DNA from: Microbacterium mitrae | Lineage (GTDB): Bacteria > Actinomycetota > Actinomycetes > Actinomycetales > Microbacteriaceae | DNA length: 64,000 bases | Assembly (NCBI RefSeq): GCF_008017445.1 | Contig: NZ_VRSW01000002.1 | Location: 372,001-436,000, forward strand | Direction: 5' to 3' | Part shown: piece by piece, positions 1 to 17,673 of the stretch | How the letters are laid out: each line of letters starts with the position of its first letter | How positions within the stretch are numbered: position 1 is the stretch's first letter | Program-made: the position numbers and the translations under genes | Notes under the pieces: model-generated | What the model was told of the DNA's origin: nothing | Seen by the model: only the letters and a program-made list of their open reading frames with translations | The model's database searches: none

Positions 1-1891
1 GCGAACCACGAACCATTCGCGGTAGCCTCGTGCCAAGCGGCAAGGACCGACGGGCGATGAAGACGTTTGGTCCGTCGGCCAAATATCCATTGATGTTTGA
101 AGCTTTGATCTGAAGGCCATCCGTGAAGATGTACTTCTCACTCATCGAAAAGTTCCGAAGATTGATCACCGCGACGGTCACGCCGGCGTTTCGCTTCGCG
201 TTGTTCTCCCATTTGAACGATGTGTGAGCAAAACCGATCTCGATGTCATCGCTGAGCACGGTCGGGAACATCAAGCCAACATGGTCACCTTGCGACACTG
301 AGTTAGTGGTTACGAATGCGAGCTGAGCCTGCGTATCCCGGATGTAGTCGGCACCCTTGACGAACCAAAGCGAGATGTAATCAAGATTCGGAGAGAACGG
401 GCGCTCTCCAAGAACCGACTTAAACTCGCCCTTCTGCTCCTTGGTCTGCATGCTGGAGCCCACATAAGGAGGGTTCCCGATCAGATAAATCTCCGTCTCG
501 CCGTCGTTCGGGCAGACCTCATTCCAGTCCACCCGCGTCGCGTTCCCAGCCTTGATCTGCCCGGTCTCTTTCAGTGGGATCAGAGGGATCGGCACGCCGA
601 ACTTCGCACGGAACTCAGCATTCATCTGATGCTTTGCTATCCAGAGCGACAGGATCGCCACCTCGACGGCGAAGTCGTCGATCTCGATTCCGTAGAAGTT
701 CTCGATGTTGATCCTCGAGTCCGTCCACAGCGTCTGGTGCGACGGGCTCAGCTCGGCGAGCCGCTCGAGAATCGCGTGCTCGAGCTTGCGCAGCTCCTTA
801 TACGCGATGACGAGGAAGTTGCCCGATCCACATGCGGGGTCGAACACCTTGATTGCCGCGATCCGGTCCAGAAGGCGGACCAGGCGGCGCTCGCTGTCCT
901 GCGCCTCGTTGATCTCCTCCTTCAGATCGTCCAGGAACAGCGGCTCGATCGTCTTCAGGATGTTCGGCACTGATGTGTAGTGCTGGCCGAGGTCGCTGCG
1001 CTTGCCGGGCGTGACGATCGCTTGAAACATCGAGCCGAAGATGTCGGGGTTGATGTCGCGCCAGATCAGCGTGCCCGAGGCGATGAGCTCGTCGCGCGCT
1101 TGCTTCGTGAACCGCGGCACGACCTGCTCGTCGGTGACCGTGAACAGTCGGCCGTTCACGTACGGGAAGTCCGCGAGGTGCGTCGGCTTGTCGGCCGGAT
1201 CGGCGGTGTCCAGAGCCTTGAACAGGTCGGTCAGGAACTCTGCGAGGTCAGACCCATCGGACTGGGTCTGCGACCCGACCGCGTTCGTGAACTGGTTGTG
1301 GTCGAAGATCCCTGTGTCCTCGGCGAAGAAGCAGAACAGCAGCCGGGTGAAGAAGATGTTCAGCGAGTGACGCCCCTGCGCGTCGTCGAAGATGCCCGGG
1401 TTCGCGTGCAGCAGCTCGTCGAAGAGCTTGCCCATGCGCTCGGCCGCCTTGACGTCGGCGTGCGACTCCGCGGCGTACTGAGCTTTCTCCATGCCGGCCC
1501 ACGGCAGGAAGAAGGTGAAGTGCTGGTCGATCTCTCGGATCGGGAAGCCGATCGTCTCGTTCGTCTTGGTGTCGTGCGCGACGACGTCGACGTAGTCGGT
1601 GACGATCATGAAACGCGTGCTGAAGCGCACGACCGCCGGCGTCGTCTTGAGCTCCTCGGCGACCTCGAGCGGGTCGCCGGCAGTCTCCTTGAAGTAGACG
1701 ACGTTCTTCTGAGCGACCTCGGTCGTTGGATCGACGGCGACGTTCAACGAGCCGTTGCGCAGCCGGGTGACGTTTCCCTGCGGTTTCCCGTAGGCGAGCA
1801 GGAGATCGAAGACGAACTCCCGGTCATACGTATCGCGCCCGGCCAGCGGGGCGACCCGCTCCTCGACCGACTTGAGGCTCAATCTCGCCAT
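1..1891 (-). CDS. MmeI-like class I DNA methyltransferase, 3' end outside window
   Basis: The open frame runs 630 codons from ATG 1891 to the left edge, so the C-terminus is missing. An AGGA box sits 7 bases before the ATG and a TGA lies just upstream in frame, which fixes the start. Around residue 350 is FDPACGSGNFL, the SAM-binding motif I, and around residue 473 is NPPY, the catalytic motif IV of amino-methyltransferases that make N6-adenine. The stretch before them (RLRNGS...QKNVVYFKE, then RFMIVTDYVDVV) resembles the N-terminal part of MmeI/type IIL restriction-modification proteins. I do not see the D-x8-ExK nuclease motif such enzymes carry near their N-terminus, so it may only methylate. 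The target-recognition domain would lie beyond the edge. It is the last visible gene of the minus-strand island and probably protects the host or takes part in phage defence. Confidence 0.85.
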   Translation of the reverse strand, partial: MARLSLKSVEERVAPLAGRDTYDREFVFDLLLAYGKPQGNVTRLRNGSLNVAVDPTTEVAQKNVVYFKETAGDPLEVAEELKTTPAVVRFSTRFMIVTDYVDVVAHDTKTNETIGFPIREIDQHFTFFLPWAGMEKAQYAAESHADVKAAERMGKLFDELLHANPGIFDDAQGRHSLNIFFTRLLFCFFAEDTGIFDHNQFTNAVGSQTQSDGSDLAEFLTDLFKALDTADPADKPTHLADFPYVNGRLFTVTDEQVVPRFTKQARDELIASGTLIWRDINPDIFGSMFQAIVTPGKRSDLGQHYTSVPNILKTIEPLFLDDLKEEINEAQDSERRLVRLLDRIAAIKVFDPACGSGNFLVIAYKELRKLEHAILERLAELSPSHQTLWTDSRINIENFYGIEIDDFAVEVAILSLWIAKHQMNAEFRAKFGVPIPLIPLKETGQIKAGNATRVDWNEVCPNDGETEIYLIGNPPYVGSSMQTKEQKGEFKSVLGERPFSPNLDYISLWFVKGADYIRDTQAQLAFVTTNSVSQGDHVGLMFPTVLSDDIEIGFAHTSFKWENNAKRNAGVTVAVINLRNFSMSEKYIFTDGLQIKASNINGYLADGPNVFIARRSLPLGTRLPRMVRGS

Positions 1892-2050
1892 AACGATGTC
1901 CTGTTCTCATACGGGCCGTTCGGGGGAAATCGGCCAGTCATCGCGCACGTACGCCTCTGCTGCGAGGCGGGCGCTGCGTCGTGGACATCCTATCGGCGGG
2001 GTCCGACACGGCTTCGGCCAACCGCCGTCGGATGGTGATACATCAGGGTG

Positions 2051-2336
2051 TCAGTGCAAGGGCCTAAACGGGGCGGCCCGGCTTGGCTCGGCTTCTCTGA
2101 GCAAGATGTCCGCGAAGAGCCGGTCGTTGCTCAAGGCGGTGCTGATGTCCCAGTAGTGCTGCGCCCGCTCGCTGCCGAAGTTCCCAAATCTCGACGCGCT
2201 CGAGCATGTCGAGCCGCCGTCGCAGTGCCGCGCGCGACCACGGAATCGCTTCGAAACAGTACTCAGCGCGAAGCGAAGCGACGGCACTCCCGGGGTTGCC
2301 CCCAGAAGTCCGGCTCGTGGCCGGCGAGGCACTCGA
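2051..2336 (-). pseudogene. Degenerate ORF between DUF3644 gene and methyltransferase
   Basis: Three reading frames each hold a piece that reads like protein: IECLAGHEPDFWGQP, then EYCFEAIPWSRAALRRRL, then ERAQHYWDISTALSNDRLF ending at a TGA at 2053-2051. The pieces follow one another in order, so the simplest view is a short gene broken by two frameshifts. It starts at the very end of the DUF3644 gene. I do not recognise the family. It could also be chance coding-like sequence in GC-rich DNA. Confidence 0.35.
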
Positions 2337-3416
2337 TCAGGATTTGGCCTTGGCCGGCTTCGTCCGCGGCTCCCGGCCCGTCATCTCCAAGAAGCCCTCT
2401 GGCGTCGAGCACTTCTTGATCAAGCGCTGGACCCAAGCTTTCGTATATCTGTAGGTCTTCGTCGGTTCGTCGTACTCGCAGAAGTCCGTGTTCGTCCGTG
2501 ACGGATTGTCGTCACCGTTGGGCGGACGGATCTTCGCCTTCTTCCAGGAGTCTGTGAAGTGCGCCATGTTGTAAACGTACGGTATCGCTGCCTGGATCTC
2601 CTTCACGGCCTTCGTCGGCATCACTCGGCCGAAGCCCGAGACGTTCTGTTTCCTGTCGCGGACGATCACTTGGCCGCGACGCCCGAGCTCCTCCGCGAAG
2701 GCGCGCTCGTCGTCTGTCATATCGTCGTACTTCGTGAATTGCAGCGCGATCGCATCAGGATCCTTCGGCGCGAGCTCGACGATCGCCCTGATCCTGAACT
2801 CGTAGCGCGAGTCGTTTGTGACCGACTCGTCCAGGCCGGCCTCGTAGCTCGTAACGAAGGTCCTGATGTCATTCGGCAGGGTGCTCCGGAACCTCCGCAG
2901 AGCCTGCTCTCCCTCGGAAGTGAACGTACCGACGAAGATTGGGATCCTGAGCCGCATCGCCAGCGATTGGTTGTCGCCGAACTGCTCGGTCAGCTCGGTC
3001 TCGAAGTTCACGAGCAGAGCGTGCGCGTGGCCGGCGAGGTTTAGCATCAGCGCCTCGTCGGCGTGCGCATGGCGATGCTCCAAGCGATTCCGCAGCTTGA
3101 TGAACAGCGAGAGGTTCGCACGAACCGGATCGGCGTCCGACGGCCAGCGCTCCTTCATGGAGCGCTCGAGTTCCCAGCGTTTCGCCTCCCCGTCGATCTT
3201 GAGCAGCCTCTTCTTAAACTGCGGGTCCCAGTAGCGGAAGTCCACGTCGTCGCGGATGAACTGCGCGTGCAGCAGGTAGAGCCATGCCAGGTGCATGTGG
3301 ATCACGAAGCCCTCGAACGAGCGCGACTCCGCGGGATCGTTGTACAGCCTTACTGCGAGGCACGCCTCTTCCAAGCTCGCGTCGAGAGTCGTCTGCCATC
3401 GGGGAGGTCGTGCCAT
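2337..3416 (-). CDS. DUF3644 domain protein with HEPN-like motif
   Basis: This 359-residue protein matches what I know of DUF3644 proteins: an N-terminal helical part (LEEACLAVRLYNDP), then IKLRNRLEHRHAH. Residues 109-114, RNRLEH, fit the R-x4-H signature of HEPN-fold ribonucleases. The C-terminal part contains FGRVMPTKAVKEIQ and YRYTKAWVQRLIK, which looks like a DNA- or RNA-binding tail rich in Lys/Arg. DUF3644 genes are typically strain-specific. Here it lies between a RecB-like nuclease candidate and a methyltransferase inside a tRNA-bounded island, which suggests defence, but no activity has been shown by the sequence. The gap to the upstream gene is 151 bases, so separate transcription is possible. 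The start ATG 3416 is the first in frame. Confidence 0.8.
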   Translation of the reverse strand: MARPPRWQTTLDASLEEACLAVRLYNDPAESRSFEGFVIHMHLAWLYLLHAQFIRDDVDFRYWDPQFKKRLLKIDGEAKRWELERSMKERWPSDADPVRANLSLFIKLRNRLEHRHAHADEALMLNLAGHAHALLVNFETELTEQFGDNQSLAMRLRIPIFVGTFTSEGEQALRRFRSTLPNDIRTFVTSYEAGLDESVTNDSRYEFRIRAIVELAPKDPDAIALQFTKYDDMTDDERAFAEELGRRGQVIVRDRKQNVSGFGRVMPTKAVKEIQAAIPYVYNMAHFTDSWKKAKIRPPNGDDNPSRTNTDFCEYDEPTKTYRYTKAWVQRLIKKCSTPEGFLEMTGREPRTKPAKAKS

Positions 3417-3567
3417 GTCATGAGGCTATCGGCAACCTATGACACGCGAGCGAAGTAGGGTCAAGCCCCTCTTACCTTGCGATCGGTCCCGACCTCCCGA
3501 AGACGTGCGCACAGCGCACCTCGTTGACCGTGATATTCATCAATGCAGCACTCGACGCTTGTCGTGC

Positions 3568-4458
3568 TCACACGTCGTACCCGATCACGTCGCGCCGCAC
3601 CGTTTCGATTACATCAGCCGGCAGCTCCATCACTTCGAGGCGTGAGACAACGTTCAACCGAGGGTTGAAGATGCCGACGGAGGTGATGTCCTCGAAGTCC
3701 GGCAGGCTCGACTGCTTGCCCATCAGGAAGTACATCAGCAACTGCAGAGTATGGTCCTTGGTCGGCTTCGACGCGGAAACCTTGAAGTCCCACAGCGTGT
3801 CGGCGGTCAGAAAGTCTCCGTCGCCGCTGTCCACCAGATCGGTGTACCCGCCGCGGCCGCCGACAGCGTGCGCTTCTTCGCTGACGAAGATGAAGCCATC
3901 CGTCGTCACTGGGCCGTACTGCTCAAAGAACTTTGCAGCCCGTTGGATCATGGTCAGAATATGGGCCGTCGTGACTTCATCCGGCGCGAGCTGCGTACTC
4001 TGCGGGTTGTAGAACACCACCCCCGCGCGCAGGCCCACGTCGTACGTCGACAACCGGCAGGCCCGGCGCACCGCATCCGCATCGATCACGTATTTCACTG
4101 CGCCGTCGTCGAGCTGCGTCATCTCGAACCCGAGGACCACAGCCTTCGCGTCTGCCGCGATCGACTCATCACCGCCGAAATCGCTGAGGCGCTCAGAACC
4201 CATCACTGAAGCGCGGAAGACGTCTGCCGCTTGACGCACCGCCTCTTCCGTGTTCTTCGCGCTAATCCGCGCCAGCCGGCTCAGATAGTCGACGGCCAGT
4301 CCGACGATCGACGCGTGGATATTCTCCAGTTTGTGGTCCAGCGCGCCCTGCTCGTCGTCGAACTGCGTCGCCGTCAAGAGCTTCGGATTGATCAGCCCGC
4401 CACGAGGCTGACCAACTTCCTTGTTGTATTGCTTGATGCGTTGTGTTACTGAGGCCAT
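3568..4458 (-). CDS. Putative RecB-like PD-(D/E)XK nuclease, hypothetical
   Basis: No family name comes to mind for this 296-residue protein, but its C-terminal half carries the motif set of RecB-type nucleases: GGYTDLVD (D207, D210), then LWDFKVS (D224-x-K226) as the catalytic hairpin, then QLLMY (Q239-x3-Y243), the QxxxY helix. The N-terminal half is helical and charged with no recognisable domain. It opens the minus-strand gene set of the island. AGGTGGGG lies about 6 bases before ATG 4458, supporting that start. The likely role is DNA cleavage in a defence or mobile-element function; the fold call is by motif only. Confidence 0.6.
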   Translation of the reverse strand: MASVTQRIKQYNKEVGQPRGGLINPKLLTATQFDDEQGALDHKLENIHASIVGLAVDYLSRLARISAKNTEEAVRQAADVFRASVMGSERLSDFGGDESIAADAKAVVLGFEMTQLDDGAVKYVIDADAVRRACRLSTYDVGLRAGVVFYNPQSTQLAPDEVTTAHILTMIQRAAKFFEQYGPVTTDGFIFVSEEAHAVGGRGGYTDLVDSGDGDFLTADTLWDFKVSASKPTKDHTLQLLMYFLMGKQSSLPDFEDITSVGIFNPRLNVVSRLEVMELPADVIETVRRDVIGYDV

Positions 4459-4921
4459 TCGAACCCCACCTGTTCAATTGTCGTTCGGCCCCAAGGCCCG
4501 TGATTCAAGTGTAGGTCGACAGAGAGCCTCGCTTCCAGTCGCCGCGCACGGCTCGGCGCGTCAGCTGACGGGCCTCACATCAGCACGGGAATCGACCTCG
4601 CAGCACTCCGACGAAGGACCTGGCTCAGCGCTACTCACGAGTCGACTCAGGCGAAATATACTCCGGCTCAATTCGAGCGCCTGAGGTTCAAATCGATGAA
4701 GATGCTCCGGCCGAACGCTAGATGCTCGACCAGCTCGCTCGAGCACGCTCTGGAGCGCTCGAAACGCTCCAAGAATGTACACGCAGATGTACACGCAAGG
4801 ATCAGGATGTACACGTATCCGGCGGGAATCGCCGGGAAGGGGCGATGCCTCGCGAGCCCTACTCCCGTCTGGCATCGCGAGCTACCGAGCGCTCCTGCGG
4901 GAGATGCTGGCAGCGTCTCAA
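4459..4921. other. Gene-free edge of island between nuclease gene and tRNA scar
   Basis: No convincing ORF is present. The left part must hold the promoter of the minus-strand nuclease gene. The right part is rich in short repeats: three copies of ATGTACACG and several GGAGCGCTC/CGCTCC palindromic elements around 4750-4770 and 4895. Such repeats close to an attachment site may be integrase or excisionase arm sites. No integrase gene is in the window. Confidence 0.5.
4775..4816 (+). repeat. Three direct copies of ATGTACACG beside the attachment scar
   Basis: Copies start at 4775, 4787 and 4807, that is 12 and 20 bases apart. The core TGTACA is itself palindromic. They lie 105-150 bases from the tRNA-Pro fragment. 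Possible roles are integrase arm-binding sites or repressor operators of the element; this is inference. Confidence 0.55.
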
Positions 4922-4955
4922 GGGGTCGCAGGTTCAAATCCTGTCAGCCCGACCA
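4922..4955 (+). other. tRNA-Pro 3' fragment, integration (att) scar
   Basis: The stretch GGGGTCGCAGGTTCAAAT and what follows to GACCA reproduces the variable loop, T arm, 3' acceptor strand and CCA tail of an actinobacterial tRNA-Pro. The T stem GCAGG pairs with CCTGT. The 5' half of a tRNA is absent upstream. A fragment ending in CCA followed at once by a terminator is the displaced 3' end of a tRNA gene after integration of an element, so this marks the right end of the island. The rebuilt full tRNA should lie to the left of the window. Confidence 0.8.
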
Positions 4956-4958
4956 AAG

Positions 4959-4992
4959 AATCGCGGAAATTCAAGGGTTTCCGCGATTTTTT
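4959..4992 (+). terminator. Terminator of the split tRNA-Pro gene
   Basis: AATCGCGGAAA pairs with TTTCCGCGATT around an 8-base loop and runs into a T tract. It starts 3 bases after the CCA of the tRNA-Pro fragment, as expected for the original tRNA terminator. Confidence 0.85.
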
Positions 4993-5079
4993 CGTTGGTG
5001 ACATGTGATCCGGTCCTCACAACCCATCTTTTTGACAAGCCGACGTGGTACGCGGGCCTTTGTCACCCGGCATGGCTCT

Positions 5080-5936
5080 TTCATCAGCTCGCGACCGCGG
5101 CGTCGGTCCTCGTGCCGGTAGGCGGCGATCATGCGCTGATAGATGCCCCAGGTCGCCTCGACCTCGACATGTTCTCGGTCGCGAACAACACCCTCAGCCG
5201 GGAGGCCTGCTTGTCGGTGAGCAGGTCGGCGACGGTGTGCAGGGTCCGCCTGGCCGAGTAGGGCGGGTCTCCCTTCATCCCGCGGTGGCCGTAGATGGCT
5301 TGCTACACACGCCGGCGGCACCGGTCGAGTGCGTCGCCGGCGAGGCGGACGACGTGGAAGGGATCCATGACCGCGACCGCATCGCGCCACGCCTGGTGTG
5401 GCAGCACAGTGCTCATCGACGCCGACGACCTTTACGCCATCGAACCGGTCGGCGTCTCGATCAGGACCCTCTTGCCCTCGGCCAGGACCGCATCGTTGGC
5501 GGTGTTCCAGGTGAGGTCGAGCCCCTCGGCGATCCGGGCAACAGTGAGGTGCTGCACGACGAGCGCTTCGAGTGCCCACCGCAGCCCGCGGCGCGAGAGC
5601 TTCGCCCGTGGGTCGGCCGCGCGGGTGGTTTCTTGGCGCCACACGCGCCCGCAGCCGGTGCAACGGTAGCGACGCACCGCGATTTCAAATACGGTGGGTC
5701 GCCACGTCCAGCGCCTCGTGCGCGAGTCGACGGATGACCGTGTCCCGAGCAGCGCCCTCGGCGCCGCAGCATCGGCACCACTCATCAGGGGTCAGGACCG
5801 GGCAAGCGAGCACCGCACGCGCGGGCTCGAGGCGTTGACCGGTCACGACGAGGTCGAGCTCATCGCGGCGGCAGAACGTGGTCAGGTCAGGGCGGGCGAA
5901 CGCGCCAGAGCGCTCGCCGACGGTAGCGTCAGACAA
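5080..5936 (-). pseudogene. ISL3-family transposase, decayed
   Basis: From ATG 5936 the frame gives DLTTFCRRDELDLVVTGQRL and a CRCCG zinc-binding motif, then shifts near 5700 into RYRCTGCGRVWRQ and VVQHLTVARIAEGLDLTWNT, then shifts again near 5450 into GVKVVGVDEH, the first catalytic Asp region of ISL3 transposases. After VDEH a large middle segment is missing; the next recognisable pieces are VMDPFHVVRLAGDALDRCRR, an in-frame stop, ARRTLHTVADLLTDKQ and VEATWGIYQRMIAAYR. The C-terminal third is lost. With several frameshifts, a stop and an internal deletion it cannot be active. An intact copy would be about 430 residues. Confidence 0.9.
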
Positions 5937-6046
5937 GTCAAGGTCTCTCGGATGCAGCGTGTAGGAACCTTCATCCTCGGGAGATCTCGACGTCTATCCC
6001 GGGACCGCCACGCCAACGCCAACTACACCCTCATCTGGGATGAGCC
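5080..6046 (-). mobile_element. Remnant of an ISL3-family insertion sequence
   Basis: The transposase pseudogene is preceded by a leader running to 6046 on the minus strand. This leader begins GGCTCATCCCAGATGAGG, which resembles the terminal inverted repeat of actinobacterial ISL3 elements. The other end cannot be seen, because the C-terminal part of the transposase is missing. The visible end stops 5 bases before the tRNA-Thr fragment. Confidence 0.75.
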
Positions 6047-6051
6047 TGATT

Positions 6052-6084
6052 AGGTCGTCGGTTCGATTGCGACAGGCGGCTCCG
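6052..6084 (+). other. tRNA-Thr 3' fragment, second integration scar
   Basis: AGGTCGTCGGTTCGATTG, then CGACAGGCGGCTCC, matches the 3' part of an actinobacterial tRNA-Thr whose acceptor strand is AGGCGGC with discriminator T. Two bases depart from a functional tRNA: the T stem has a G where C is needed (6069), and the tail reads CCG instead of CCA. There is no 5' half. A hairpin follows. I read it as an old, mutating attachment-site copy. Confidence 0.65.
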
Positions 6085-6090
6085 GCGAAT

Positions 6091-6124
6091 AGCCCCTGAC
6101 CTGTGGAAACGCAGGGCAGGGGCT
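6091..6124 (+). terminator. Hairpin behind the tRNA-Thr fragment
   Basis: AGCCCCTG pairs with CAGGGGCT and an inner CCTG pairs with CAGG around TGGAAACG, giving one long stem with a single mismatch. The T tract is weak (TTCCGTTC). Its place fits the former terminator of the tRNA gene. Confidence 0.6.
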
Positions 6125-6304
6125 GTTCCGTTCTGGTGGTCGCGATGCGGCGGGGCGTTGTGTCGCGACCTGGACGTGCGAGGTGTCAACGGTGCATAGC
6201 CGCAGCGATCGTTCGGCCCGTCGGGGATCATCAACGTGGTGCGGGTGTCGAGGCGGTCGGGTCCGGAGGCTCGGCGGGGCGCGATCGTCTCGTGCGTTGG
6301 CGGA

Positions 6305-6616
6305 CTACGGAAGCTTGGACGCCAGGACGTCGGCCGCCAGGATCTCGGGTGCTGCGGCGAGGAGGTGCTGGTTGGCCATCAGGGCGGTGACGATGGCGCC
6401 GTTGGCGTGGGCGTCGCGAGCGGCCTCGTCGGGGAATGCATCGAAGATCCAGAAGGTGTCGGCGTGGGTCCTGACCGCGAACCAGACAATCGTTCCTACT
6501 TCTTCGTTGGCGAGTGCGACAGCACCGGCGAGCAGATCGGCGAGCGAGTCGTGCTGTCCATCGGCCGCGACGATCTTGGCGACGAAGGCATACGGAAGTG
6601 ATGTGGGTGTGGACAT
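6305..6616 (-). CDS. Antibiotic biosynthesis monooxygenase (ABM) domain protein
   Basis: The 103-residue protein has the ABM/dimeric alpha-beta barrel pattern: LPYAFVAKIVAADGQHDSL at the start, then GTIVWFAVRTHADTFWIFDAF, then AARDAHANGAIVTALM and a C-terminal APEILAADVLASKLP. Small ABM proteins are dimeric and act as quinol monooxygenases or degrade heme, but the substrate cannot be told here. AAGGAG lies 7 bases before ATG 6616. It is divergent from a GlxA-type regulator 107 bases away, which is probably its controller. Confidence 0.85.
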   Translation of the reverse strand: MSTPTSLPYAFVAKIVAADGQHDSLADLLAGAVALANEEVGTIVWFAVRTHADTFWIFDAFPDEAARDAHANGAIVTALMANQHLLAAAPEILAADVLASKLP

Positions 6617-6690
6617 GAGGGACTCTCCTTGAGGTCGGGGTTCTTCGTGAGACGAGTTCAGCCTATGACGAGCGAGAGCCGGTGGGGAGT

Positions 6691-6723
6691 GGCGTATACG
6701 GCAGTAATGCTACTATTTACGCC
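6691..6723 (+). promoter_or_regulatory. Leaderless promoter and inverted repeat of the GlxA-type regulator
   Basis: TACTAT at 6711-6716 makes a good -10 box 7 bases before ATG 6724, so the transcript probably starts at or next to the ATG. The box is enclosed by GGCGTA (6691-6696) and TACGCC (6718-6723), an inverted repeat with a 21-base spacer that could be an operator, perhaps for autoregulation. Confidence 0.5.
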
Positions 6724-7665
6724 ATGCGTATTGGACTGATCGCGATCGACGGCTGCTTCGGTTCGGCTATCGCGTCGATCATTGACATCGTGCGGGTGGC
6801 CGACGGAGCCCGCGGCGATGTCGACCCGCGGATCGAGCCGATCGAACTCGCCATCCTCGGACCGAAACGGCGAGTGACCACGACGGCATCGATGACCCTG
6901 TCGGTGGACCACCCGCTGTCGGCGTCCGGAGAGTTCGACGTGGTCGTCGTCCCTGCGCTTGGAACCCTCACGGCCGCCGATACCAACGACGCCCTCCAGA
7001 GCCGAGATGCTCGTTCGGTGATCGCCTCGCTCGGGCGCCTCGACGAGGCGACCACCCGGATCGCCGCGGCGTGCACCGGTGTGTTCGCCGTCGCCGAGAC
7101 CGGACGGATGCATCATCGGCGGGCGACGACGAGCTGGTTCCTAGGGCCGGAGTTCCTGAAGCGCTATCCGACCGTCGCCCTCGATCTCGACACCATGGTC
7201 GTGGTCGACGGGAACCTCGTCACCGCCGGCGCCGCGTTCGCCCACATCGACCTCGCGCTCTCACTCGTGCGATCGATCAGCCCCGACCTGGCCCAACATG
7301 TCGCCAAGCTCCTCATCATCGACGAGCGGCCGTCGCAGGCGGCCTTCGTCGCCTACGAACATCTCCGGCACGAGGACCCGATCGTCGTCGAGTTCGAACG
7401 CTTCGTGCGCGCCCGCCTGGACGAACCGTTCAACGTCGCCTTCGTCGCGCAGTCGCTGGGCACCAGCCGGCGCACCCTCGAACGACGAATCCGTGCGGCG
7501 CTCAACCTCACTCCGCTCGGCTTCGTCCAACGGCTTCGCATCGAACGAGCTCGGCACCTCTCAGCAACCACGGACCTCACCTCCGCCGAGATCGCGCTAC
7601 GGGTCGGCTACGCGAACGCCGAGACTCTGCGCTCCCTCCTGCGCAGGGAGCGACGCCGTTCCTGA
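6724..7665 (+). CDS. GlxA-family transcriptional regulator (DJ-1/PfpI plus AraC domains)
   Basis: Residues 1-180 form the DJ-1/PfpI-like domain (MRIGLIAIDGCFGSAIAS, IAAACTGVFAVAETG, TAGAAFAHIDLALSLV), and residues 215-313 an AraC-type double HTH (VAFVAQSLGTSRRTLERRI and SAEIALRVGYANAETLRSLL). I prefer ATG 6724 to the upstream ATG at 6682, because conserved sequence begins there and a -10 box lies just in front. The protein ends in RRERRRS, whereas relatives continue with a segment like GATP..YR. The +1 frame right after the stop reads ATPFLTYRHAL, so a one-base change near 7655 may have cut off about 12 residues. It probably controls the divergent ABM gene. Confidence 0.85.
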   Translation: MRIGLIAIDGCFGSAIASIIDIVRVADGARGDVDPRIEPIELAILGPKRRVTTTASMTLSVDHPLSASGEFDVVVVPALGTLTAADTNDALQSRDARSVIASLGRLDEATTRIAAACTGVFAVAETGRMHHRRATTSWFLGPEFLKRYPTVALDLDTMVVVDGNLVTAGAAFAHIDLALSLVRSISPDLAQHVAKLLIIDERPSQAAFVAYEHLRHEDPIVVEFERFVRARLDEPFNVAFVAQSLGTSRRTLERRIRAALNLTPLGFVQRLRIERARHLSATTDLTSAEIALRVGYANAETLRSLLRRERRRS

Positions 7666-8063
7666 CCTATCGCCATGCTTTAGGACCACCTCTCAGCACG
7701 TCGCGTCGACGCTCGAGCCTGTTTGGCGATCAGCCGACAAAGTTTTGGATCTTTACGAAACAGAAGAGGCAATCGCTGACGAAGTGCACCGCTCGCTTGA
7801 ACGCGCGTACTGCGCACGGAACGACCGCTATCTCAATGCGGCCTGTTGGATTGCCGCTGCGAGATGGTCATAGCCGACGACTGCGACGGCGAGCAGCTGT
7901 GCAGTGCGGTGCGACGACCCACAGTAGTTCTTGGGATGGCGCTGGCCGCGCCCGCGGATCGCCGATAGCCGCAGAACACGGGCCGAATAATCGGGGCCCA
8001 ATCCGTATTGCGCTAGTTTGAGGATGGATTGCTCGGTGTGGTCGGGTCGAGAGGAAAATTGCT
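7666..8063. other. Spacer with a possible gene fragment
   Basis: The only protein-like sequence is a frame ending at 7873 that reads STLEPVWRSADKVLDLYETE, continues with EAIADEVHRSLERAYCARND, and ends in RYLNAACWIAAARWS. It has no start codon of its own and is probably the C-terminal end of a lost gene; I do not recognise the family. The rest up to 8060 holds the promoter of the PH-SHOCT gene. Confidence 0.35.
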
Positions 8064-8576
8064 GTGGCAAAGTCGGAAAAGCTTGTCGAACAGGCGAAGG
8101 GGCATTTTGAGGTCGGCGAGGTGCTGAGAGGCGCCGTTCGGGGCGCGTACGAGGTCAAGATCATGGGATCCGACAGTGTTCGGAATGGGGTGCTCATCGC
8201 GACAGACCGAAGGGTGATCTTCTACGCCAAGAAGTTGGGTGGGTTCGATCTCGAGTCATTCCCGTATGGCAATATTTCGAGTTTCGAGCAAGGCAAAACC
8301 CTGATGGGGCACCATGTCACATTCCATGCGTCTGGCAACCGTGTCTCCGTGAAGTGGCTCCAACCTGCGAACGAGTTTGCGGACTTCCTGTCGGCTGTGA
8401 AGCAAGGGATGAATGCGAAGCATGTTCGCTCTGATGCTCAGGCTCCGGCGCAGAACGTCGTTGCCGGCGCTGACGTCATGCTCCAATTGCAACAATTAGG
8501 TTCGCTGCGGGACGCCGGTATCGTCACCGCTGATGAGTTTGAGACGAAGAAGGCGGAACTACTTAAGAGGCTCTGA
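8064..8576 (+). CDS. PH domain (YokE-like) and SHOCT domain protein
   Basis: In this 170-residue protein, residues 20-115 look like a bacterial PH domain: GVLIATDRRVIFYAKK, then FPYGNISSFEQGKTLMGHHV, then VKWLQPANEFADFLSAVK. Residues 138-170 are a SHOCT motif, QLGSLRDAGIVTADEFETKK ending AELLKRL. SHOCT tails are usually oligomerisation or interaction elements on small membrane-associated or phage-like proteins. The start is GTG 8064 with GAGGA 9 bases upstream. It stands alone on the plus strand. The biological role is not known. Confidence 0.8.
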   Translation: MAKSEKLVEQAKGHFEVGEVLRGAVRGAYEVKIMGSDSVRNGVLIATDRRVIFYAKKLGGFDLESFPYGNISSFEQGKTLMGHHVTFHASGNRVSVKWLQPANEFADFLSAVKQGMNAKHVRSDAQAPAQNVVAGADVMLQLQQLGSLRDAGIVTADEFETKKAELLKRL

Positions 8577-8823
8577 CTTGGCCCCGCCTGCGTGGTCGAA
8601 GTTCTGCGGCTCGTGTGGGGTCAATCGGATCGCTGATGGACATCGACGCTGGCGCCCGGCTCACATCTTAGGGCGGCTGCTAGATTGCTCGAGGGCGCGT
8701 GGGAAACGCTTGTGCGCCGTGGTGTTTCGGAGCCCGGGCTCTTCCCTCAGATGAATGGATCTGCGCGTCGATCCGTGATACGGATGGCTGCGTCGCCTGG
8801 CCACCTCGTATTCTGGATCAATC

Positions 8824-9908
8824 ATGAGCGAACACTTCAAGGACGTCGCGCGTCGCATCGAGGCGAACCCGCTCGGCCGCCTCATGTACGGGCAGCGCGA
8901 GCTGTTCCACTCCAATCTCATCGGCTGGTTCTTCGATCAGCTTCCCGCATCGGCTGACGCAACGTTCCGCCCGTTCGCAGGGGACGGTTCCGACTCGCAT
9001 CGCTTCGTGGAGCGCGAGCGCGGACATATGGATCTCGTGTTCCACTGGCCAGATCGCGCGCCATTGGTCATCGAGAACAAGGTTTTCTCGTTACCGCAAC
9101 GCGACCAATTGGAGGAGTATCAGGCTGCAACAGCCGGGTGGTCGCACGCACCACCCCTCTCGTACTGCTGTCGGTGAGTGCGCCAGACTTCGATCTCGGC
9201 ACTTGGCGCTATCTCAGCTACGCAGAATTCGGGGCACGGATCCTTGAAGCGCTCCCCGCCGATTCGTCATACGAGGTCGAGACGATGCGCCGCTACGCCG
9301 CGCTCATTAGCGATCTGCACCAGTTGGTCTCTGCCACCGACGTACGCTCCGACAATGAACCCGTGTGGCTGTCTGAAACACTGCTCTCATCGATTTCCAG
9401 TTCACAGATGCGCGCCGCGTTGCACAAGGCACGCGCCCAGCGCGTCGCGCGCGCACTCAACGATTTTCTGCCTGAACTTGAGCAACCTGCGGCTGGTGGC
9501 ATGAGCAACGCGACCCCGCTGGTGGAGTCATTCGAGTACGTATACACGCGGGGACAGCATGTGCATCTCGGTTGGCAGCTCCAAGGCAACCAGTTCCGCC
9601 GTGCCGTCGTCTACCACGACCAATCGATAGCGGGTCGGAGCCAGGAATCACGACGTCTACGTGAGGACATAAGTCGGCGGCACCCCGAGTTCTATGCTTT
9701 TCCAATGCCGCTACCTCAAGTCCCTGGCGGAAGAAAGGAGTTCAATCACTTCGCTCCGTCTTTCGTTTATAGGTACGTGAAGACACCCGATCTCACAATT
9801 TCTGACTTGAAAGCGGCAGCCTCAGCGGTGCACGGGGAGATTGAGCAACATCGCGCTGAAGGTTCCGTAGAGCCTCGCCCCATCGATACTGCGCGAACAG
9901 CGCCGTAA
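8824..9908 (+). pseudogene. PD-(D/E)XK nuclease family gene, frameshifted
   Basis: The first frame (8824-9177) gives the catalytic half: ELFHSNLIGWFF, then GHMDLVFHW (D70), LVIENK (E84-x-K86) and QLEEY, the motif order of PD-(D/E)XK family proteins. It ends early in APPLSYCCR. The second frame, readable from about 9140 to 9908, goes on with TPLVLLSVSAPDFDLGTWRY and about 240 more residues, including FARPH-like C-terminal segments such as FNHFAPSFVYRYV. The two frames overlap near 9145-9165, so one indel there splits a gene of about 360 residues. Whether it is a true mutation or a sequencing error cannot be told. All three active-site residues are in the first piece. Confidence 0.8.
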
Positions 9909-10001
9909 CGCGTTCTCCGCACGCGCCGCATTGCGGCTAGCTGAGGGAACCAACGCCAGTATCACCATGGCGCGCACGGCACCCCCGCCATGCACACCCC
10001 G

Positions 10002-11465
10002 TTACTCCAACATTCCGCGCAACCGCTCGTGAAACTGGGTGGAGCGGGAGTCGAGGCCCACGAAGTGCACAGTGATGTCGTGCTCGCGATATTTCGTTTC
10101 GACGGAGTCGAGGGCGGCGACGGTTGACGCGTCCCAGATCTGTGCCGCCGAGAAGTCCACCGTCACCTCAGCCGGGTCTTCGGCGTATGAAAACTGTTCG
10201 ACGAGGTCGTTGCTGCTGCCAAAGAAAAGCGGGCCGTGCACGGCATAGGCAACACTCGTTCCCGACACCTGTCGCGTCAGGGTCACGACATGCGCCACGC
10301 GCCGCGCGAACAGCACCATGGCCAGCAATACGCCAACGCCCACGCCAATCGCGAGGTTGCTCGTGGCGACCACGACGACAATGGTCACCACCATCACCGC
10401 CGTCTCGGAAAGCGGCATGCGGCGCAACGTAGACGGCCGAATGCTGTGCACGTTGATCGTCGAGATGGCTACCACCATCATCACGGCAGCCAGCGCGACC
10501 ATGGGAATCTGTTCCATCACGTCGCTCAGCACCGTCACGAGCACAAGCAAGAACGCACCTGCCACAAACGTCGACAACCGCGTGCGTGCGCGCCCCAGCT
10601 TGACGTTAACCACCGTCTGGCCGATCATCGCGCACCCGGCGATGCCGCCCCACAGCCCGGCGAAAATGTTCGAGACGCCCAACGCCCACGACTCACGGCC
10701 CTTGTGCGATCGGGTGTCGGTGATGTCATCGACGAGCTTCGCCGTGAGGAGCGTCTCCATCAGCCCGACAAACGCGACGCTCACGGCCGTCGGGGCAATG
10801 ATGCCCAACGTCTCCATCGACAGCGGAACCAGCAGTGGCGTGATTCCGGGGAGCCCGCCCGCCACCTCTCCCTGATCGCCCACGGCCGGAACACTCAGCT
10901 GCGCAATCATCGTGATCGCCGTCACGACGACAATCGCCACCAGGGGCGCGGGTACCGCCTTCGTGAGACGCGGTAGCCCCACCACAATCACGATCGTCAG
11001 CGCGAAAAGCGGATACACCAGCCAGGGCACATCGAGCAGATGGGGAACCTGCGCGGCGAAGATCAGAATGCCGAGCGCATTGACGAACCCCAGCATCACC
11101 GACCGCGGAATGAAGCGCATCATGCGCGCGAGGCCGGTCACACCAAACAGAATCTGAATGGTTCCGGCCACGATGACCGTTGGCAGCAGGTACTCGACTC
11201 CGTGCTCGCGCACCAGGGGCGCCACCACCAGAGCCACCGCGCCTGCGGCCGCCGTGATCATCGCGGGGCGACCGCCCAAGATTGACATCGAAATCGCCAG
11301 CACCACCGAGGCGATCAGGCTCACCTTGGGATCAACGCCCGCGATCACCGAAAACGAAATCACTTCGGGAATCAGAGCCAGTGTCGTGACGATTCCCGCG
11401 AGCACTTCCGTCGCGAAGAGTCGGGGGTTGCGCAGGGCCTGTATCACAGACGGAGAAGTCTTCAC
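10002..11465 (-). CDS. SulP-family anion transporter with STAS domain
   Basis: The 487-residue membrane protein begins LFATEVLAGIVTTLALIPEV, the first transmembrane region typical of SulP (SLC26) carriers, followed by about ten more hydrophobic segments up to residue 390. Residues 400-487 form a cytoplasmic STAS domain (VSGTSVAYAVHGPLFFGSSN, VDFSAAQIWDASTVAALDSV). Such carriers move sulfate, bicarbonate or dicarboxylates, and the substrate cannot be assigned here. No carbonic anhydrase gene is next to it. It is divergent from a broken GH1 gene. Confidence 0.9.
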   Translation of the reverse strand: MKTSPSVIQALRNPRLFATEVLAGIVTTLALIPEVISFSVIAGVDPKVSLIASVVLAISMSILGGRPAMITAAAGAVALVVAPLVREHGVEYLLPTVIVAGTIQILFGVTGLARMMRFIPRSVMLGFVNALGILIFAAQVPHLLDVPWLVYPLFALTIVIVVGLPRLTKAVPAPLVAIVVVTAITMIAQLSVPAVGDQGEVAGGLPGITPLLVPLSMETLGIIAPTAVSVAFVGLMETLLTAKLVDDITDTRSHKGRESWALGVSNIFAGLWGGIAGCAMIGQTVVNVKLGRARTRLSTFVAGAFLLVLVTVLSDVMEQIPMVALAAVMMVVAISTINVHSIRPSTLRRMPLSETAVMVVTIVVVVATSNLAIGVGVGVLLAMVLFARRVAHVVTLTRQVSGTSVAYAVHGPLFFGSSNDLVEQFSYAEDPAEVTVDFSAAQIWDASTVAALDSVETKYREHDITVHFVGLDSRSTQFHERLRGMLE

Positions 11466-11547
11466 TGATTAACTTTAGGCGTTCCGCCCGGCGCCGAGCG
11501 GCACAGAACCCTTGCCCTGGCGCGGGAGTGCTCCTAAGCTACGGGAA

Positions 11548-11565
11548 GTGGGACAAGTGTCCCAC
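11548..11565 (+). promoter_or_regulatory. Palindromic operator, same type as at 17998
   Basis: GTGGGACA and TGTCCCAC form a perfect 8-base inverted repeat with a 2-base spacer, lying 83 bases from the SulP start and 41 bases from the GH1 start. Its outer and inner bases match the palindrome in front of the TetR gene (AAGTGGGAC...CCCACT), so the same or a related regulator may bind both. Confidence 0.55.
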
Positions 11566-11605
11566 TCTGTGACTGGGCGAACGATGACGTTAGCCGGGGG
11601 AGGCG

Positions 11606-12103
11606 ATGATGTTTCACGAACCGCACGCTGGCGCCAACCCGGTAGCGCTGGGTCAGGCCCTTCCGCCCTCCTTTGTTCTGGGCACGGCAACCGCATCGGC
11701 GCAGATCGAATGTGCAACCACCGTCGGCCGGCGCACCCCCAGCGCGTGGGATCGCTTTAGCGCCGAACCCGGCCGTATTCTCGACGCCAGCACGACGGCG
11801 GTGACCGCCGATCACTATCACCGTGTCTCCGAAGACGTGCGCCTCATGGCGGCGCTCGGCTTTGACGCCTACCGCTTCTCCCTCGGCTGGACCCGCCTGC
11901 AACCCGAGGGGCGCGGCCCGCTCGACCCCACCGGCGTCGACTTCTACGACCGCTTGCTCGATGAGCTGCACGCCGCCAACATCACGCCATTCGCCACGAT
12001 CTTTCACTGGGATCTCCCGGCCCGAGGCCGTACACGCGGTCGCCAGCATGCTCGACGACGCCGACACCCCACGGTGACGCAACCGGCGGTCACCCCACGG
12101 TGA
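11606..12103 (+). pseudogene. Glycoside hydrolase family 1, truncated
   Basis: Residues 22-139 are a clear GH1 beta-glucosidase N-terminus: FVLGTATASAQIECA, TPSAWDRF, TADHYHRVSEDVRLMAALGF, YRFSLGWTRLQPEG and ITPFATIFHWDLPA. After HWDLPA the family sequence stops abruptly and 26 unrelated residues follow. A functional GH1 enzyme has about 450 residues, and both catalytic glutamates lie downstream of the break, so this gene is dead. Another frame just after the break reads RPEAVHAVASMLDDADTPR and stops at 12077, possibly the tail of the same or another deleted gene. Start ATG 11606 or 11609, with GGGGGAGG in front. The palindrome at 11548 probably controlled it. Confidence 0.85.
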
Positions 12104-12116
12104 CGGAACCGGCGGT
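12065..12116 (+). repeat. 26-bp tandem direct repeat, two copies
   Basis: Unit 12065-12090 (CACCCCACGGTGACGCAACC...) is repeated at 12091-12116 with one mismatch. It fills the gap between the truncated GH1 gene and the end of the dGTPase gene. Confidence 0.8.
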
Positions 12117-12118
12117 GA

Positions 12119-13741
12119 CTACGCGGTGCCGGTGAGGGTGCGGTGCGTGGCGATCGCCTGCTGATCACTCAACGACGACACGTAGTCGACGATCGCGCGG
12201 CCGCGCGCCTGACGACGAAGCCCGGCATCGCTCGCCTCGCCCACGATGCTTTCGGGTCGCGATTGCCGCAGCGCAAACATGTTGTGCGTGACCTCCTCGA
12301 CCCACTCCTGCAGGCGCCGTGGTGCTCGCGGTGCGTCATCGGAGTCGGTCAGCCAGGCGTCAAAGCCAAGAGCGAGATCGGTGACGATGCGTGCCTGACC
12401 GCGTTGCGGTAGCGCAAGCTCCGGGCGCTCCAAGACAAAGTGCGCGTGCACAAACTTCAGCACGATGACTTCGTGCCACGCGCGCTGATTCAGTCGAACG
12501 TGGCCGCTGCGCACATGCGGGTTACGCTCCACCACGACCGAGGTGCGCAAGTGTTCAATCCATCGTCGAGTAAAACCCGAGACCGCACGCTCACTGTCGA
12601 TGCCGCCATCGTAAGCGGCGGCTAGCAGCGAGCCGCTGATGCTTTCGCTCACCCGTTGCACGGCCTCGGCGAAGGCGTCGCGGTCGGCAATCCACGCGTC
12701 TTTCATTGAGGCGCGACGCCACAAGAGCTCCAGTGCCGTTCCGGGTGCGCGCCGCGTTGCGGCCAGTTCGGTCTCGTCCATCGTTGAAAACGCGGCAGCG
12801 GCCGACAGCCAAGCCCGAAACTCTGCGGCGACTTCGGACTGCTGCAGCACGCCTGCGCGCGCAAACTCGTCCAGATCATGAACGGCGTAGGCGATATCGT
12901 CGGCGAGATCCATGACCGCGCACTCGATCGTTTGCTGCCCCGGAGCGATCGTGGGGAAGGCGCTGCGAGCCTGTTCCATTTGCGCCGCATCCAGCGCATA
13001 GGCCGAAAACTTGCCCGCTCCTGCAATCGGGTCGGCGCCCACGCCGCGACGGCGATCAGAGACCGCCAGATCCGAGATGGACACCCCGATCCACTCGCCA
13101 CGCGTCCACGGGTACTTGAGCGTGGCCGCGCGCGTGCTTGCGGTCAGGTTGAGGCCAGGAAAATTGCGCCCGAGCGTATCGAGCTGCACCAGAATGCGAA
13201 ACGACTGCGCGTTGCCCTCGAACCCTTCGAGCAGCCCCAACCGCTCGCGTGCGACGCGGTCCAGCACCCGCTCACCGAGGTGCCCGAACGGTGGGTGACC
13301 GAGGTCGTGGGCATGCGCGGCTGCCTGGGCGACGATCGTGTCACACCCGCCGAGCATCTCAATGGTGGCGCCGGTTGCATCGTCTTCGCGGCGCTCACCG
13401 CGGGTGAAAGCGCGGCGCCGTGCGGCAGTACCGGCGAGGTTGGCGGCAATCACGCGGGCGACGGCGCTCACCTTGAGCGAGTGGGTCAGGCGGTTGTGCG
13501 CCATCGGCCCAACACCGGAGAGCGGAACCACCTGCGTCACATCGGAAAGCCGCCCGAAATAGGGGGAGAAACGGATGCGTTCGAGGTCAATGCGGTATTG
13601 CTCGGTCGCGAGCGAGCCGTTGCTGGCTCCCTCGTCGGCGCCGGCAACATCTTCGACCGACAGCGCGGAGTGCTGGGAAGATTCGGCCTCGGCGTATCGG
13701 CGCGATGTACGTGCCAGAGAGGGGGCATCCGCGAATGTCAT
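12119..13741 (-). CDS. dgt: dGTP triphosphohydrolase (HD domain)
   Basis: The HD-domain metal ligands are visible: NRLTHSLK (H87), AHAHDLGHPPFGH (H145-D146) and, after a helix, EGNAQSFR, all typical of dGTPase-type enzymes that cleave dNTPs to nucleosides and triphosphate. At 540 residues it is longer than the common 420-residue actinobacterial enzyme; the extra length is in the C-terminal half. The N-terminus has SPYFGRLSDVTQVV, which fits the substrate-pocket region. I chose ATG 13741 over an upstream TTG (13753), because a purine-rich stretch lies in front of it. It probably keeps dNTP pools in check. It is followed by a tandem repeat and preceded by a strong hairpin. Confidence 0.85.
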   Translation of the reverse strand: MTFADAPSLARTSRRYAEAESSQHSALSVEDVAGADEGASNGSLATEQYRIDLERIRFSPYFGRLSDVTQVVPLSGVGPMAHNRLTHSLKVSAVARVIAANLAGTAARRRAFTRGERREDDATGATIEMLGGCDTIVAQAAAHAHDLGHPPFGHLGERVLDRVARERLGLLEGFEGNAQSFRILVQLDTLGRNFPGLNLTASTRAATLKYPWTRGEWIGVSISDLAVSDRRRGVGADPIAGAGKFSAYALDAAQMEQARSAFPTIAPGQQTIECAVMDLADDIAYAVHDLDEFARAGVLQQSEVAAEFRAWLSAAAAFSTMDETELAATRRAPGTALELLWRRASMKDAWIADRDAFAEAVQRVSESISGSLLAAAYDGGIDSERAVSGFTRRWIEHLRTSVVVERNPHVRSGHVRLNQRAWHEVIVLKFVHAHFVLERPELALPQRGQARIVTDLALGFDAWLTDSDDAPRAPRRLQEWVEEVTHNMFALRQSRPESIVGEASDAGLRRQARGRAIVDYVSSLSDQQAIATHRTLTGTA

Positions 13742-13768
13742 GGCCCTATTCAACCAGCCTGGGGCAGA

Positions 13769-13811
13769 CGCGTGAGGGAGGCGAAGACCGCGTCTTCGTC
13801 TCCCTCACGCG
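13769..13811 (-). terminator. Hairpin between bdhA-like gene and dgt
   Basis: CGCGTGAGGGAGGCGAAGAC pairs over 20 bases with the sequence ending CTCCCTCACGCG, with one G-T pair and a 3-base loop. It lies just behind the dehydrogenase stop and ends transcription before dgt. No T tract follows. Confidence 0.75.
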
Positions 13812-13825
13812 GTGATCACACCGTG

Positions 13826-14914
13826 TTATTCGGCAGATTCGAGCCCGGCGCCCGAGGGCGACACTAGAATCTTCACGGCCGTCTCGTTGCGGTTGATGAG
13901 GGTGTCAAAGCCCTCGTCAACGATGTGCTCCATACCGATCTTTCCCGTGATGAACGGCTTGAGGTCGATCTTGCCCGACTCCACCAGCGCAATCGTCGCA
14001 GGGTGCGAGTTAACGTAACCAATGGTTCCGCGCACATCGAGCTCTTTCATCACGAGCTTGTGCATGTCGAACGTCGCAGGCTTACCCCAGATCGACACCA
14101 CAACGATGACGCCGGTGGGGCGCACGGCGTCCATCAGCGTGTCAAAGACAACCTGCACAGACGTTGCTTCAAAGGCAACATCGGCGCCCTGACCGCCGGT
14201 GAGCTTCTTCACCTCGGCCACCACGTCGACCTCGGCCGGGTTCAACGCCACATCGGCGACGCCGGCATCGAGAGCCTTCTGACGGCGCAACGGCGACAGC
14301 TCCGAAATGATGACGCGAACATCGAGAGCGTGCAGCACGGCGGCAGTGAGCTGACCGATGGGGCCAGCACCGCCAACGAGCGCGGTTTGACCAGCCTTGA
14401 CGCCCGAGCGCATGACGGCGTGGTAGGCAACTGAGAGCGGCTCGATGAGGGCGGCTTCATCGAGGGCAACAGCCTTGTCAATCTTGTGCACCCATCGGCG
14501 CTTGACGACGATGTTTTCAGCCAGTCCGCCACCGCGGCCGGCGAGGCCGATGAAGTTCATGTCTTCAGACAGGTGGTAGTCGTTCGAGTCAGGGCCGGTG
14601 TTGACGTCATCGTGAATGATGTACGGCTCAACAACGACGTGGTCGCCGACCGCGAGATCGGTGACACCCTCACCCAGTTCAGATACCACACCCGAGAACT
14701 CGTGGCCGAGCGTGATGGGTGCCGATTCTCCCGAAATCGGGTGCGGCTGACCCGGAGCCGGAACGAAGATCGGGCCCTCGAGATATTCGTGCAGATCGGT
14801 GCCGCAAATCCCCGTCCATGCCACATCGATACGCACCGTTCCCGGCTCCAGCGGCTGCTGTTCGATGTCTTCAATGCGAATGTCGTTGCGGCCGTAGTAG
14901 CGTGCTGCCTTCAC
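13826..14914 (-). CDS. Zinc-dependent 2,3-butanediol dehydrogenase-like MDR enzyme
   Basis: This is a medium-chain dehydrogenase/reductase of 362 residues. GICGTDLHEYLEGPIF carries the catalytic zinc Cys and the spacing seen in 2,3-butanediol dehydrogenases; GHEFSGVV holds the catalytic His-Glu; LVGGAGPIGQLTAAVL is the NAD-binding Rossmann motif. The four-cysteine structural-zinc loop of many alcohol dehydrogenases is replaced by a segment with few cysteines (PYIIHDDVNTGPDSNDYHLS), as in BdhA-type enzymes. It probably interconverts acetoin and butanediol with NAD(H), though other secondary alcohols are possible. AAAGG is 9 bases before GTG 14914 but directly abuts the upstream TTG 14923, so GTG 14914 is preferred. 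Confidence 0.8.
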   Translation of the reverse strand: MKAARYYGRNDIRIEDIEQQPLEPGTVRIDVAWTGICGTDLHEYLEGPIFVPAPGQPHPISGESAPITLGHEFSGVVSELGEGVTDLAVGDHVVVEPYIIHDDVNTGPDSNDYHLSEDMNFIGLAGRGGGLAENIVVKRRWVHKIDKAVALDEAALIEPLSVAYHAVMRSGVKAGQTALVGGAGPIGQLTAAVLHALDVRVIISELSPLRRQKALDAGVADVALNPAEVDVVAEVKKLTGGQGADVAFEATSVQVVFDTLMDAVRPTGVIVVVSIWGKPATFDMHKLVMKELDVRGTIGYVNSHPATIALVESGKIDLKPFITGKIGMEHIVDEGFDTLINRNETAVKILVSPSGAGLESAE

Positions 14915-15407
14915 GATGATCAACCTTTCATGCGCCGACGCGCGAGGCGAAAGCGCGCGGTGGCATGCTTTCGCTTCATCGCTTCGATGACTGGATTAGT
15001 CCAATAGAAGCAAGACAGTGCGCAGGTCGTTCGGCTATCAGAGCAACGCGGCCTAACAGGGCTCAGCGTCTCAAACGATCACACTGCTTGATACCTTCAG
15101 CCTACGCCTGATCGCGCTGCTGGGGGTCGCCGACTGCGCCGGAAATAACCGCATGCGCGTCGCTCTGCTGCCCTGAGCGCAAGCGTCGTGGGGCAACACA
15201 AGCACACCAGCACCGGTGAGGAGAGGCAGCGACGGGGCGAGCGGCAATTCAGCGACCGTCAGGCTCAGCACCAGAATGAGCACGTTCAATCGTGTGGTGA
15301 GCGCGGAGCGCAACCTCATGGTGCCGTCTGCCGGCGGCAAACGCTGCGAAAAGCCAACCCGAGATCTCGGTCATGCCGCTCGCGCTGGCGTACGCCGGCG
15401 AAAATCA
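14915..15407. other. Long spacer with possible membrane-protein remnant
   Basis: The part nearest 14915 should hold the dehydrogenase promoter. On the minus strand at 15071-15340 there is a hydrophobic frame (LNVLILVLSLTVAELPLAPS, LLTGAGVLVL). It has no ribosome-binding site and ends in arginine-rich sequence, so it may be a remnant of a membrane protein or chance. Nothing else is visible. Confidence 0.35.
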
Positions 15408-17051: not shown

Positions 17052-17080
17052 AAGGGTGGCCCTCCTGCTCGCGCTTATGG

Positions 17081-17627: not shown

Positions 17628-17673
17628 TTGGATGATGTCATTCGCCAGCCCGCCGATTGCCTAGGCTTATGAC

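Follow-up and report, generated by a model that had tools for sequence, protein, structure and literature searches.

Do three adjacent minus-strand genes at the left end of a stretch of Microbacterium mitrae DNA, encoding a RecB-like nuclease, a DUF3644 protein and an MmeI-like methyltransferase, together make up a single anti-phage system? The stretch analysed, referred to here as the window, is 64,000 nucleotides long (G000:C3:372001-436000), and the stretch to its left is termed L002. A sequence-only reading had suggested that the three genes could fit one multi-layer system inside a tRNA-bounded island. The genes and the motifs named for them (D224/K226, R109/H114 and NPPY) are present, with family matches far beyond chance, and all three are of defence type, one being a DNA methyltransferase and the others having a probable DNase and a probable RNase fold. 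They are nevertheless very probably neighbours and not one system, each an independent module in a composite defence island integrated at a tRNA-Pro gene. The three are half of a co-directional run of six genes, with the methyltransferase gene cut by the window edge. The run consists of the following:

Window 3568-4458, minus strand: PD-(D/E)XK nuclease gene, 296 amino acids (aa), with a predicted RecB/Cas4/MGME1-like fold, listed by PADLOC as candidate PDC-S61.
Window 2337-3416, minus strand: DUF3644 gene, 359 aa, predicted N-terminal HEPN domain at about residues 1-150, PADLOC candidate PDC-S19.
Window about 1-1891, minus strand: 5' part (630 of 908 codons) of the DnmA/YeeA-type MmeI-like methyltransferase gene, the rest lying outside the window, to G000:C3:371165.
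Outside the window, in L002, directly downstream of the methyltransferase gene: superfamily 2 (SF2) helicase (YeeB), 660 aa.
Outside the window, in L002, after the helicase gene: YeeC, 395 aa, with a C-terminal GIY-YIG/T5orf172 domain.
L002 8200-10005 (G000:C3:366200-368005), minus strand: fourth coupled gene after yeeC, 601 aa, with one C-terminal membrane-like segment.

Recurrence and separate histories of the three genes

None of the 43 genome-contig loci anchored on DUF3644 (94%-31% identity, including two duplicates and about a dozen contigs with short flanks) carried the PDDEXK nuclease, the methyltransferase, YeeB, YeeC or the fourth gene in the flank read, by tblastn at 1e-4, and the window's PDDEXK, YeeB and YeeC families were also missing from five plasmid loci and one genus locus with DUF3644. 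The other modules were likewise absent from all 14 PDDEXK loci (six from plasmids, six from viral contigs and two from the genus, some with short flanks), and neither DUF3644 nor the PDDEXK gene was found in the flanks read of ten DnmA-YeeBC loci, where that of L008 extends only 1.2 kb upstream. A single system of three genes was rejected, as the genes do not recur together in the loci read and the same neighbourhood was not found in other genomes. Among 296 genomes of the class, M. mitrae included, DUF3644 was found in four, the PDDEXK gene in two and YeeB in two, and only M. mitrae has all of them; in 99 genomes of the genus the counts were two, three and four. Because the genes are so rare, these two samples alone could not reveal linkage and it is the anchored loci that carry the weight. 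No description of the three-gene set was found in the literature searched, in which no query combined all three families and most subscription papers lay outside the search.

The closest relatives of the modules are found in different places. YeeB is 94% identical in two genomes of the genus, G524 and G499, where the stretches read around it are without the other two modules. The DUF3644 protein is 94% identical in Microbacterium arabinogalactanolyticum (L032), where its gene occupies the same tRNA-Pro site, flanked by the tRNA and a second attachment-site (att) copy, and adjoins a gene for an 876-aa HSDR_N-methylase protein. The nearest relatives found for the PDDEXK nuclease are 55% identical (G499, over residues 10-294) and 54% identical (on a Microbacterium plasmid, beside a type I restriction-modification (R-M) system). 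Blocks of nucleotide similarity (blastn, 1e-10) extend no further than 22 bp ahead of the methyltransferase start in L018 and 73 bp past the DUF3644 stop in L032. Since these blocks stop near the gene edges, most of the gap between the two genes is common to neither relative, and together with the different locations of the closest relatives this unshared spacer fits a stacking of modules at a hotspot.

The methyltransferase and its partners outside the window

The 908-aa methyltransferase matches five Pfam domains of MmeI (MmeI_Mtase, TRD, hel, N and C), with the part inside the window scoring 2.2e-99 against MmeI_Mtase and 3.3e-191 against the PADLOC model REase_MTase_IIG, and it contains the NPPY motif. 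Residues 91-902 align with residues 107-914 of MmeI (PDB 5hr4, E 1e-175), while the N-terminal nuclease region is not aligned to MmeI. The D..EMK stretch of the nuclease is absent from all eight split-type proteins aligned, the window protein and seven relatives, and is kept in the stand-alone MmeI-family enzyme of L016, which served as a comparison. The protein is MmeI-like by family and is without the MmeI nuclease motif; its gene runs on past the window, where the helicase and GIY-YIG genes follow. A single-chain type IIL restriction enzyme of the MmeI kind was rejected because, with the motif missing, nuclease and methyltransferase are not in one chain.

The methyltransferase and helicase genes overlap by 4 bp (L002 13165-13168), as do the helicase and GIY-YIG genes. 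The helicase has a DEAD match (1.4e-08) and the conserved blocks APPASGKS, DE.HH and QI.GR, which we take to be helicase motifs; YeeC matches MUG113 (3.8e-13) and T5orf172 (2.8e-12), both over the cut-off. The order methyltransferase-helicase-GIY-YIG was seen in 10 of 10 helicase-anchored loci (L008-L012, L018, L019, L161, L163 and L164). As this order matches dnmA-yeeB-yeeC and the nuclease motif is missing, the methyltransferase is placed in a DnmA-YeeB-YeeC cluster, and its true partners, judging from sequence and gene order, are the predicted SF2 helicase and GIY-YIG/T5orf172 protein outside the window. The combination is already in print as a possible Type I-like R-M system, and PMC9973331 describes the cluster as conserved, so that the set is real but largely ordinary. 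Membership of MADS was rejected (22.8 bits against a cut-off of 720 for MAD2), as was membership of BREX (at most 37.7 bits with the PglX models against cut-offs of at least 400).

The frame after yeeC is 639 aa long; its probable start is an internal ATG overlapping the preceding stop, which gives 601 aa. Relatives were found in three plasmid records, the best 28% identical, and the gene was rejected as a conserved member of the cluster; the one of these records that was read, L155, has no YeeABC in its flank as far as covered, and a 56-residue match in L161 sits where the frame and yeeC overlap. The slot after yeeC varies between loci, being occupied in L008 (7082-8572) by a 496-aa frame with a weak PDDEXK_9 match (0.01) and in L163 (11356-12096) by a 246-aa frame with a weak NucS_C match (8e-4); these two and the M. 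mitrae gene all overlap yeeC. Eight other DnmA-YeeBC clusters have no same-strand gene overlapping yeeC, the plasmid gene tables being incomplete.

The two solo modules and the tRNA-Pro hotspot

The DUF3644 protein matches its Pfam family at 3.5e-46 and PDC-S19 at 2.8e-85 over the full length; PDC-S19 itself gave no match in the literature searched. Its Rx4H motif, R109-N110-x-x-E113-H114 (RNRLEH in the window protein), has all four named residues invariant in 40 of 40 aligned members, an alignment that leaves out L044 and L068 (duplicate neighbourhoods), L067 (interrupted frame) and L074 (a fragment), with L021 (in-frame stop) unused. The structural model has a mean predicted local distance difference test score (pLDDT) of 80.5 and a predicted template modelling score (pTM) of 0.57, with pLDDT below 50 at residues 162-165, 210-229 and 243-260. 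Its best structural match is the HEPN protein 2hsb, with Z 9.1 and a root-mean-square deviation (rmsd) of 2.8 over 118 aligned residues, where the tool warns that Z below about 13 is weak for helical bundles, as applies to all of the DUF3644 matches. Of the top 20 structures, 10 mention HEPN in their titles and two are Csm6; no clearly unrelated structure appears above Z 5.5. Foldseek with the same model returned nothing with E below 0.3, and profile searches of the PDB that started from the alignments of DUF3644 and PDDEXK turned up nothing meaningful at the sequence level. The N-terminal domain is thus predicted to have a HEPN fold. PMC3710099 places DUF3644 in the HEPN superfamily and links the proteins of that superfamily to R-M operons and abortive infection.

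The 296-aa protein matches PDC-S61 over its full length (7e-89). All seven proteins aligned keep D213, D215, K226, Q239 and Y243 and have D or E at position 224; D224 and K226 of the window protein lie in WDFK, and its GD.D, DxK and Q...Y are presumably the motifs of a RecB/Cas4-type PD-(D/E)XK nuclease. One relative, L025, is without the DxK aspartate. The model (pLDDT 90.5, pTM 0.88) has MGME1 as its best VIA-align match (Z 10.3, rmsd 4.0, 157 residues), with AdnA, ACE1 (a Cas4 family protein) and AddAB also matched, whereas Foldseek gave nothing with E below 0.1. From the model, a RecB/Cas4/MGME1-like PD-(D/E)XK fold is predicted. In the literature searched, PDC-S61 is listed once in a table, for S. 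thermophilus. A constant upstream partner was rejected for the gene, the upstream proteins in L026 and L151 being unrelated. One PDC-S61 relative, at L154 8001-8753 on an IMG/VR contig, is surrounded by genes that by eye resemble a series of tail genes, in the manner of prophage cargo. An annotated PDDEXK nuclease domain protein lies 1.4 kb from DUF3644 on the opposite strand in L015, and gives no tblastn match to the window's nuclease.

The island that holds the six genes spans 11.1 kb and is delimited by these features, whose repeats are 11,096 bp apart:

G000:C3:365783-365857 (L002 7783-7857), outside the window: intact tRNA-Pro(GGG) gene, found by ARAGORN.
G000:C3:365822-365857: left att copy, inside the intact tRNA-Pro(GGG) gene.
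Window 4918-4953, plus strand: right att repeat, a 36-bp perfect copy of the tRNA-Pro(GGG) 3' end.

The island is therefore bounded by a tRNA as the sequence-only reading had it, but by one outside the window; the bound inside the window is the 36-bp repeat and ARAGORN found no tRNA there. Of the genus's 98 other genomes, 19 contain the att repeat a second time (at most one mismatch, same contig and strand, within 65 kb), bounding tRNA-Pro(GGG) islands of 3-64 kb; the count leaves out G558, whose three copies and tRNA are on separate contigs, and G491 and G499, with copies on different contigs. In the 14 of these 19 islands that were fetched there was no match to any of the six island genes. 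From 84 mechanically called open reading frames (ORFs) of at least 150 aa in the 14 islands, 10 from eight islands were picked by eye as likely defence or integrase genes, so that their contents are not a rate: three tyrosine-type phage integrases, two AAA ATPases, a SMODS cyclase and a JAB-TIR-SAVED protein as in CBASS (both L135), a SIR2-like protein (L147) and two without a match. Given these changing contents in relatives, tRNA-Pro(GGG) is an integration hotspot in the genus with swapped cargo, partly of defence type. L019 comes from a different family within the order, and there too a DnmA-YeeBC cluster directly follows tRNA-Pro(GGG).

Elsewhere in the window, overlapping minus-strand frames at 4971-5785, just right of the att repeat, resemble by eye a transposase remnant, and a possible PD-(D/E)XK-type nuclease, again by eye, is split across two overlapping plus-strand frames at 8824-9908. 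Within window 1-20000, nothing reached the gathering score of an Rfam family.

Rival readings, proposed roles and known systems

Several observations weigh against independent modules in a composite defence island. The six genes run in the same direction with short gaps, 151 bp between the nuclease and DUF3644 genes and 445 bp between the DUF3644 and methyltransferase genes, and co-transcription is possible. YeeABC and a PDDEXK relative are both present in the G499 genome, albeit on different contigs. Of the six plasmid and genus DUF3644 loci, one (plasmid L016) has an MmeI-family enzyme, the stand-alone one mentioned above, with DUF3644 59 bp after it, and in plasmid L014 DUF3644 is in a row with an N-6 methylase; a loose link between DUF3644 and R-M thus exists. 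Pfam scans found no integrase among the six island genes, and in B. subtilis deletions of dnmA, yeeB and yeeC were without effect on three phages, according to PMC9973331.

The last two points would suit a decayed relic, with YeeABC as the remains of an R-M system that no longer works and persists as an orphan methyltransferase, a view put forward for B. subtilis. We regard this as unlikely, since no frame is closed, the helicase and GIY-YIG domains show no obvious loss when aligned to seven relatives (for L011 yeeC the longer annotated piece alone was used) and YeeB is 94% identical in two other genomes of the genus. A Vibrio crassostreae study cited in PMC9973331 reportedly found higher sensitivity to some phages on deletion of dnmA and yeeB.

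Could DUF3644 instead be a loose helper of whatever R-M system shares its island, a restriction breach triggering the RNase so that growth stops? The 94% identical DUF3644 of M. arabinogalactanolyticum, at the same tRNA-Pro site with a different R-M-type gene adjoining, speaks for this, as do the genes beside DUF3644 in L016 and L014, a DNA methyltransferase gene at a distance of 3.4 kb in another plasmid (L013), a methylase family common to the neighbourhoods of L032, L034 and L035, and the HEPN-R-M association given in PMC3710099. The neighbours are mixed, however, and R-M genes are no commoner near DUF3644 than far from it. The comparison drew on the 28 of 43 loci whose flanks are long, with 93 of the 123 ORFs on the near side. 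A small protein panel detected R-M-like ORFs within 3.5 kb in 2/28 loci and at 6-9.5 kb in 2/28 (93 and 103 ORFs), and a methyltransferase motif rule gave 3/28 within 5 kb and 4/28 at 5-10 kb; both tests miss L032, and the motif rule also misses L013, L014 and L016. Among the top 25 Pfam families listed, the near side had DEAD (5), ResIII (3), Phage_integrase (3), GmrSD (2) and one each of Type ISP, HamA, Mrr and cytosine methylase, and the far side Helicase_C (3), SNF2 (2), N6_Mtase (2), NaeI (1) and more metabolic families. PADLOC defence families were assorted and occurred on both sides. A fixed partner was rejected by all-against-all clustering of ORFs within 5 kb from the 43 loci: the clusters among those listed were overlapping frames of DUF3644 itself, a recombinase family in four loci, the methylase family in three and pairs, many of which came from two sets of near-identical contigs, L043/L044 and L067/L068. 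DUF3644 resides in defence islands; a specific link to R-M is unproven, and the helper role seems decidedly unlikely.

A bolder form, which we consider very unlikely, makes DUF3644 a portable suicide back-up, a HEPN RNase that moves between tRNA-Pro islands, is re-paired with different types of R-M and fires on a restriction breach. Were it true, its pairings would be with DnmA-YeeBC here, the HSDR_N-methylase fusion in M. arabinogalactanolyticum, and MmeI-type and N-6 methylases on plasmids. That the three window genes form one multi-layer system, in which the methyltransferase would label the cell's own DNA, the RecB-like nuclease would cut DNA lacking the label and the HEPN protein would kill the cell should that fail, is highly improbable despite their adjacency on one strand, their defence character and the HEPN-R-M association in print (PMC3710099), as they do not recur together (0/43, 0/14 and 0/10 loci) and the methyltransferase has conserved helicase and nuclease partners of its own.

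For independent modules in a composite island we infer the following roles. The MmeI-like methyltransferase would mark one strand of an asymmetric site as self and supply target recognition. On DNA without the mark, the SF2 helicase probably translocates and the GIY-YIG protein probably cuts. The DUF3644 HEPN protein probably works alone, as an infection-triggered RNase in abortive infection, and the small RecB/Cas4-type nuclease probably attacks invading DNA. The locus adds a DnmA-YeeB-YeeC cluster with three open frames to a group of disputed function (B. subtilis showed no effect, Vibrio a reported one; PMC9973331), ties the methyltransferase back to its helicase and nuclease, and adds a tRNA-Pro hotspot with swapped defence cargo. 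It also illustrates how a reading confined to a window can mistake part of a known cluster and two solo genes for a new system.

Compared with DnmA(YeeA)-YeeB-YeeC of B. subtilis, the M. mitrae cluster has the same three families in the same order and a methyltransferase without the N-terminal nuclease motif, the B. subtilis proteins not having been aligned directly; it differs in being followed by a coupled fourth gene and in sharing a tRNA-Pro island with two further genes of defence type. With MmeI, a type IIL R-M enzyme (5hr4), the methyltransferase region is shared, whereas the N-terminal nuclease motif is missing from the M. mitrae protein. The nuclease matches PDC-S61 over its full length and is longer than the 253-position profile owing to inserts. 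The DUF3644 protein, with its full-length match, Rx4H motif and predicted HEPN fold, shows no difference of kind from the PDC-S19/DUF3644 family, while of the DUF3644 loci read only that of M. mitrae has a DnmA-type cluster adjoining it.

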